From a bacterium (GTDB lineage Bacteria; Verrucomicrobiota; Verrucomicrobiia; Limisphaerales; JAJXZI01), in NCBI GenBank assembly GCA_021780115.1, contig JAJXZI010000330.1, forward strand, positions 1-42,929: a stretch of DNA of 42,929 bases, given 5' to 3'. The translations under genes were made by a program, and so were the position numbers. The notes beneath the pieces are model-generated. The model had not been told where the DNA came from. It did no database searches and saw nothing but the letters and a program-made list of their open reading frames with translations. The number at the start of each line of letters is the position of its first letter. Position 1 is the stretch's first letter. Shown here piece after piece: positions 3,502-4,362 of the stretch.

Positions 3502-4362
3502 CAAAACACAAGTCCCCGCCGGATCTTGCGACCCGGCGGGGACAAATGGGGGATGGGAGTGCGCCACGCTCTCTTTCCCGGGCTGGCATTAGGCGCCGCA
3601 GGGGCTGCCAGCTTCCCGACGCCATTCTCCACGGCAAGCGGAGTCTTCGGCCCCATAGCAGGGCCGTCCAGCGGCTTGCGCCCACTGAATTATTGAGTGA
3701 GGCCTCTCAGCCCGCTTGGACTGGTGGTTGCGCCACCGGCTTGCGGACCAGGTCAAGACACGTCTGCGATTTTGACTGCGCGTCTTGACCCCTTGCTCTG
3801 GGTCGGCCACCGCTGCTGGCGGTGCGTTGGCCCAAAGCCACGGGTCTGACCTCTTACCTCTCAGGTTGCCTATCGCTCACAGGCCAGCGGTGCCGTTTGT
3901 AGCATCGCCGGCGTTTCGGGAGGTTTTCACGGATCCTGCCCAGACCTCGTGTCCTCCCCGGAGTGAACGCTCAGTTTGTCCCGCCTTTCGGCGTCTTTCG
4001 TTTGGCGGATTTCGCATTGGCGAAACCGCCAGAGTCACCCGCTCCGTGCTGGACGCAGTAGCAACCGGGTACCCTCTGGGTAACTGCGATTCGCCCAAGC
4101 CCGAAACCAGCCTGGGTTACTTGACCCGGCTCGGGGCGGTTTCTTATCGCTCCTCGCCGCCAAGTTCCTGCTCGCGTTACTGACGGCGCGCGAACGCCGC
4201 CAGAGGAACTGGTGAGTCCTGCCTCCTCCGCCGGACCTTGCGGTCCGGTTTTCCGAGGGGCCAAGCCAACCAGCCTGACTTGGCCGTTCCCCAGTCGCCT
4301 GGGATTATCCTGGAAACGTCCAGCGGCAATCTGTTGACCGCCGCCATCCATTTCCGCTCTCT
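3502..4362 (-). ncRNA. Candidate large structured non-coding RNA (unknown class)
   Basis: No convincing ORF; many strong hairpins (e.g. 3512-3543, 3582-3612, 3751-3790, 4004-4030, 4054-4088, 4100-4135, 4231-4248, 4259-4285, 4290-4303); on the minus strand several are closed by GNRA tetraloops (GCAA, GAAA, GCGA); 3' hairpin followed by T-rich TTGTGTTTT; TATAGT at 4374-4369 as possible -10. Confidence 0.55.
3512..3543 (-). terminator. Terminator-like hairpin at end of the candidate ncRNA
   Basis: Minus: GTCCCCGCCGG-GTC-GCAA-GAT-CCGGCGGGGAC followed by TTGTGTTTT. Confidence 0.5.

Follow-up and report, generated by a model that had tools for sequence, protein, structure and literature searches.

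The minus strand of positions 4310-3556 carries an MISL RNA (Rfam RF03079), which cmscan aligns over model positions 1-751 of 751, with both ends complete; the score is 582.6 bits (E 1.7e-176), 308 bits in excess of the gathering threshold of 274.6. In the window, i.e. the whole stretch of 42,929 nucleotides that was analysed, the only other Rfam model passing is Acido-Lenti-1 (RF01687), found at 32187-32144 on the minus strand with 38.7 bits, a value that barely exceeds its cut-off of 37. The locus is a new member of MISL, unannotated before, of a class that is itself already in Rfam. The preliminary description of this interval, which recognised no known class in it, was wrong on this point, and the Rfam search that it had named as the check on novelty returned a high-scoring MISL match. 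Its comparison with OLE, GOLLD and ROOL is valid for size, ornateness, the many hairpins with GNRA loops and the presence of an own transcription unit, but none of these models scores above threshold at this locus. The papers searched give no biochemical function for MISL.

The interval is a genuine structured non-coding RNA of about 870 nt, read on the minus strand. All the nine inverted repeats listed in the preliminary description are found where it placed them, and its five hairpin loops do read as GNRA on the minus strand, the RNA sense that it proposed and that agrees with the strand of the RF03079 match; one of the repeats, the CCCGA/TCGGG stem at about 4100-4135, is present in the DNA but absent from the Rfam fold. 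The pairs of this fold were counted in 60 homologues aligned by MAFFT, the alignment not being fitted to the structure. Standard pairs occupy 89.8% of the pair cells, compared to 77.1% after shuffling and 36-42% when the structure is slid, two-sided changes occur at 124 of the 169 Rfam pairs, and the covariation score is 0.396, compared to 0.172 after shuffling and no more than 0.092 after sliding. The covariation analysis, already suggested in the preliminary description, strongly supports the Rfam fold and, with it, the claim of a discrete structured RNA in the size range of the ornate classes: in this alignment the MISL consensus secondary structure is kept by compensatory change. Folding of the 873-nt minus strand gives -426.7 kcal/mol, with z = -6.2 relative to 20 shuffles. 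The longest minus-strand ORF (4351-3971) is open in only one of the 60 homologues; since no other sizeable ORF exists, the RNA is non-coding, and a protein-coding or pseudogene origin was rejected.

The MISL gene model can be extended on both sides of the core (3556-4310): it gains about 60 nt in the 5' direction and, in the 3' direction, reaches as far as a terminator. The core itself does not differ from the family found in Verrucomicrobiota, matching it at full length in both sequence and structure, while the additional elements are outside the Rfam model. On the 3' side, a tail conserved in the alignment columns of 30 relatives, CATCCCCCATTT (3555-3544), leads from the Rfam end to a hairpin at 3543-3512 that resembles an intrinsic terminator, with a 14-bp stem, a GCAA loop and the T-rich tail TTGTGTTTT; this is the long GC hairpin already reported at the 3' end. 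It is the sole terminator-like site found by the terminator scan, in which shuffled sequences yield 1.8 by chance, and a GC hairpin followed by a T-rich tail is kept at the same position in homologues. On the 5' side, a leader hairpin (4355-4311), present in the window fold and in the leader folds of relatives, separates the core from a boxA-like element, GTTCATTGAGAGAGC (4370-4356). A hairpin in this position is found in every motif-bearing leader listed, and its sequence diverges freely.

Upstream of the leader, positions conserved in relatives point to a probable -10 hexamer, TAAGCT (4383-4378), and a probable -35 hexamer, TTGTCG (4405-4400), with a 16-nt spacer; neither was called by a strict consensus scan. 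The TATAGT that had been noticed at the 5' edge is indeed there, but it is probably not a promoter: it runs into the conserved leader element AGTTCATTGA, and it was rejected as -10 in favour of the more conserved -10 position 6-11 nt upstream. Further upstream, at 4433-4412 of the minus strand, a DnaA-box-like tandem element is found, GGTTAATAAGGTGTGCATAA, whose 9-mer TGTGCATAA corresponds to TTATGCACA on the other strand. Tandem 9-mers of the type GGTGAAYAA-n2/3-KGTGSATAW occur in 32 of the 85 MISL loci, in most cases at a distance of 61-64 nt upstream from the boxA-like element. An exact 9-mer TGTGnATAA, which corresponds to the DnaA box TTATnCACA when read in the opposite direction, stands in 14 loci (0.2 expected). 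The tandem pattern is almost confined to MISL in 12 genomes. DnaA may bind these sites upstream of MISL promoters. One further copy of the tandem pattern precedes an apparent mraZ promoter (G337, L277).

The pattern of the boxA-like element, [GT][ACT]TC[ACT]TTGA, lies upstream of the Rfam start in 80 of 85 loci (expected mean 1.5, maximum 5), mostly 55-64 nt ahead of the core and within the consensus GTTCnTTGAnAGAAC, and is absent from the other five. The full motif, GTTCHTTGAWAGAAC, is almost confined to MISL in 17 genomes; copies elsewhere are one in G157, where an opposite-strand reading frame contains it, and three in G023, within a repeated intergenic element peculiar to that genome. This three-copy element (L129, L130, L131), where GTTCTTTGATAGAAC is accompanied by conserved downstream text starting with GGATGGATAAAAAACGCCATT, has no Rfam match and is possibly an unrelated small RNA family that shares the MISL leader motif.

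A similar motif is found in rRNA leaders. In this genome, TGCTCTTTGAAAATTAA is present 140 nt before 16S, and the GTTCnTTGA core of the MISL motif is comparable to TGCTCTTTGAAAATTGA before 16S and to GTTCTTTGACAA after it. Among 14 relatives whose 16S leader could be read, a set that does not include several complete f42 genomes, 11 have a TCnTTGA-type boxA there. Within one organism, the MISL motif and the rRNA boxA are alike in the core and differ in the flanks; unusual spellings are common to the rRNA and MISL leaders of G026 (CATTGA) and of G501 (GATCTTTCACAG and GATCTTTGACAG). As in rRNA operons, the MISL element is located near the probable start of a long untranslated transcript. Conversely, base 5 varies, being usually A or C in MISL and usually T in rRNA, and the MISL element is extended by AGAAC into an inverted repeat. 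Conservation of this right half also reaches about 95%, and in 69 of 83 loci it pairs with GTTC, a feature that a plain linear boxA would not require and that could hide boxA in a hairpin.

The same dyad admits a different explanation of the leader, namely that GTTC-n7-GAAC, seen by a regulator or an RNase, serves as an operator or as a hairpin that protects the 5' terminus or directs processing there, and that its likeness to the rRNA boxA is partly fortuitous. Its preservation in 69 of 83 loci is in line with this explanation, as is the single case of a phage-fused MISL piece (L267, see below) that starts exactly at the dyad end, as expected after 5' processing. However, in the 14 broken dyads the left arm, i.e. 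the boxA half, is more constrained than the right one: most of them keep GTTC and are changed in the right arm alone, the remainder being GATC versions. Moreover, lineages with GATCTTTGACAG do not have the full dyad, yet their motif is similar to their own rRNA leader. Since the breaks are mostly of these kinds, a boxA is favoured over a pure dyad, short of proof. The operator or processing hairpin is the less likely explanation. The best reading of the element is a boxA to which Nus factors would bind, as judged from its sequence.

Of 146 genomes from the order, 68 carry MISL; for the class the figure is 92 of 385, and a draw across the whole phylum gives 20 of 241, two of these phylum-wide matches belonging to other classes. 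Named records with the MISL core motif include Opitutaceae, Lacunisphaera, Opitutus, Pedosphaera and Limisphaerales, and cultured Opitutaceae with complete genomes carry the RNA. There is nearly always one copy per genome; two Opitutaceae-type genomes, G193 and G523, have a second, more divergent copy (L029 and L106, respectively). The flanking genes are chromosomal, of varied housekeeping type, and differ from family to family, while within the order a divergent gene of about 200 aa and cysK recur beside MISL. One contig of G477, which shares its genus with MISL carriers, has both flanks about 680 bp apart and no MISL between them. Together with the changing neighbours, this syntenic site indicates an autonomous gene whose loss is tolerated, although a gain in the sister lineage would be an alternative explanation. 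A dispersed repeat of about 220 bp, with many copies in G459 and G334, is located just downstream of MISL in one locus (L097, query 3650-3872).

These neighbourhoods bear on two other explanations. A riboswitch-like leader acting in cis on cysK would fit the position of this PALP-family gene, which is downstream on the same strand here and in about ten relatives; however, the terminator-like hairpin and about 250 nt intervene before cysK, and in other families the downstream genes are unrelated. This proposal has hardly any probability left and was rejected, as the neighbour is not conserved. Size and ornateness, together with the occurrence of MISL on a few viral contigs, could also suggest a phage or prophage RNA that forms a multimeric cage, similar to GOLLD or ROOL. 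GOLLD and ROOL genes reside in phages or prophages, in many cases close to tRNA arrays; MISL, differently, has no phage or tRNA-array linkage. No MISL was found in phage or plasmid records, so that an origin from such elements was rejected, its neighbours are chromosomal, and the viral contigs carry truncated 5' pieces fused to unrelated genomes. Thus, a cage RNA is very improbable.

These viral contigs were obtained by scanning IMG/VR with three MISL core motifs (fusion contigs IMGVR_UViG_3300034668_001230, 3300034676_001488 and 3300037734_000353). Three ssRNA phage (Leviviricetes-like) contigs have MISL pieces at their 5' ends: L250, where positions 1-860 are MISL, full-length nearly to the 3' end, followed by maturation protein and replicase, L251 (a 5' piece at 1-500) and L267 (a 5' piece at 1-330). 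In L276 (1-170), 165 nt of MISL are joined to an apparent DNA-phage structural gene. In each fusion, a 5' MISL piece with its own breakpoint is attached, in sense orientation, to the 5' side of a different RNA; where the partner is an ssRNA phage, the two sequences share a short G-rich overlap at the junction. They are probably reverse-transcription chimeras, since template switching by reverse transcriptase would give such joins, and the DNA-phage case supports this explanation; a real acquisition of MISL by ssRNA phages at their 5' ends is less likely. Sequences of ssRNA phages can come only from RNA libraries; therefore, MISL is transcribed in nature in the predicted direction, and it may be an abundant transcript.

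Taken together, MISL is best explained, with a probability of roughly 0.6, as an autonomous gene with a boxA-like leader, rRNA-type Nus antitermination, its own terminator and action in trans. In this scheme, transcription of a single-copy chromosomal gene would start from a sigma70-type promoter close to the boxA-like element, with DnaA-box-like sites just upstream of the promoter in many relatives; the nascent boxA RNA would recruit NusB-S10 and other Nus factors, allowing the polymerase to cross about 870 untranslated nucleotides without being stopped by Rho, in the way known from rRNA operons and from the CRISPR arrays of enterobacteria. The RNA would then fold into its covarying multi-helix structure, the transcript would end at the GC-hairpin terminator (3543-3512), and MISL would act in trans, either as a structural RNA or within a ribonucleoprotein, useful yet dispensable. 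The rRNA antitermination complex also protects CRISPR arrays, which are long untranslated RNAs (PMC12691694), and a published survey of boxA targets, by its own account, did not cover non-coding RNAs (PMC5725501).

The class being already known, what is new here concerns the leader and the proposed mechanism of transcription, outside the Rfam model. The boxA-like leader gives a specific idea of how a long untranslated RNA may escape Rho. More tentatively, MISL could be a non-ribosomal RNA produced across Verrucomicrobiota by the rRNA-type Nus machinery, with a DnaA-linked control in Pedosphaerales-type bacteria. If true, this Nus and DnaA reading would couple the level of an abundant ornate RNA to growth rate or cell cycle. 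The loss of MISL within a genus suggests that a knockout should be viable.
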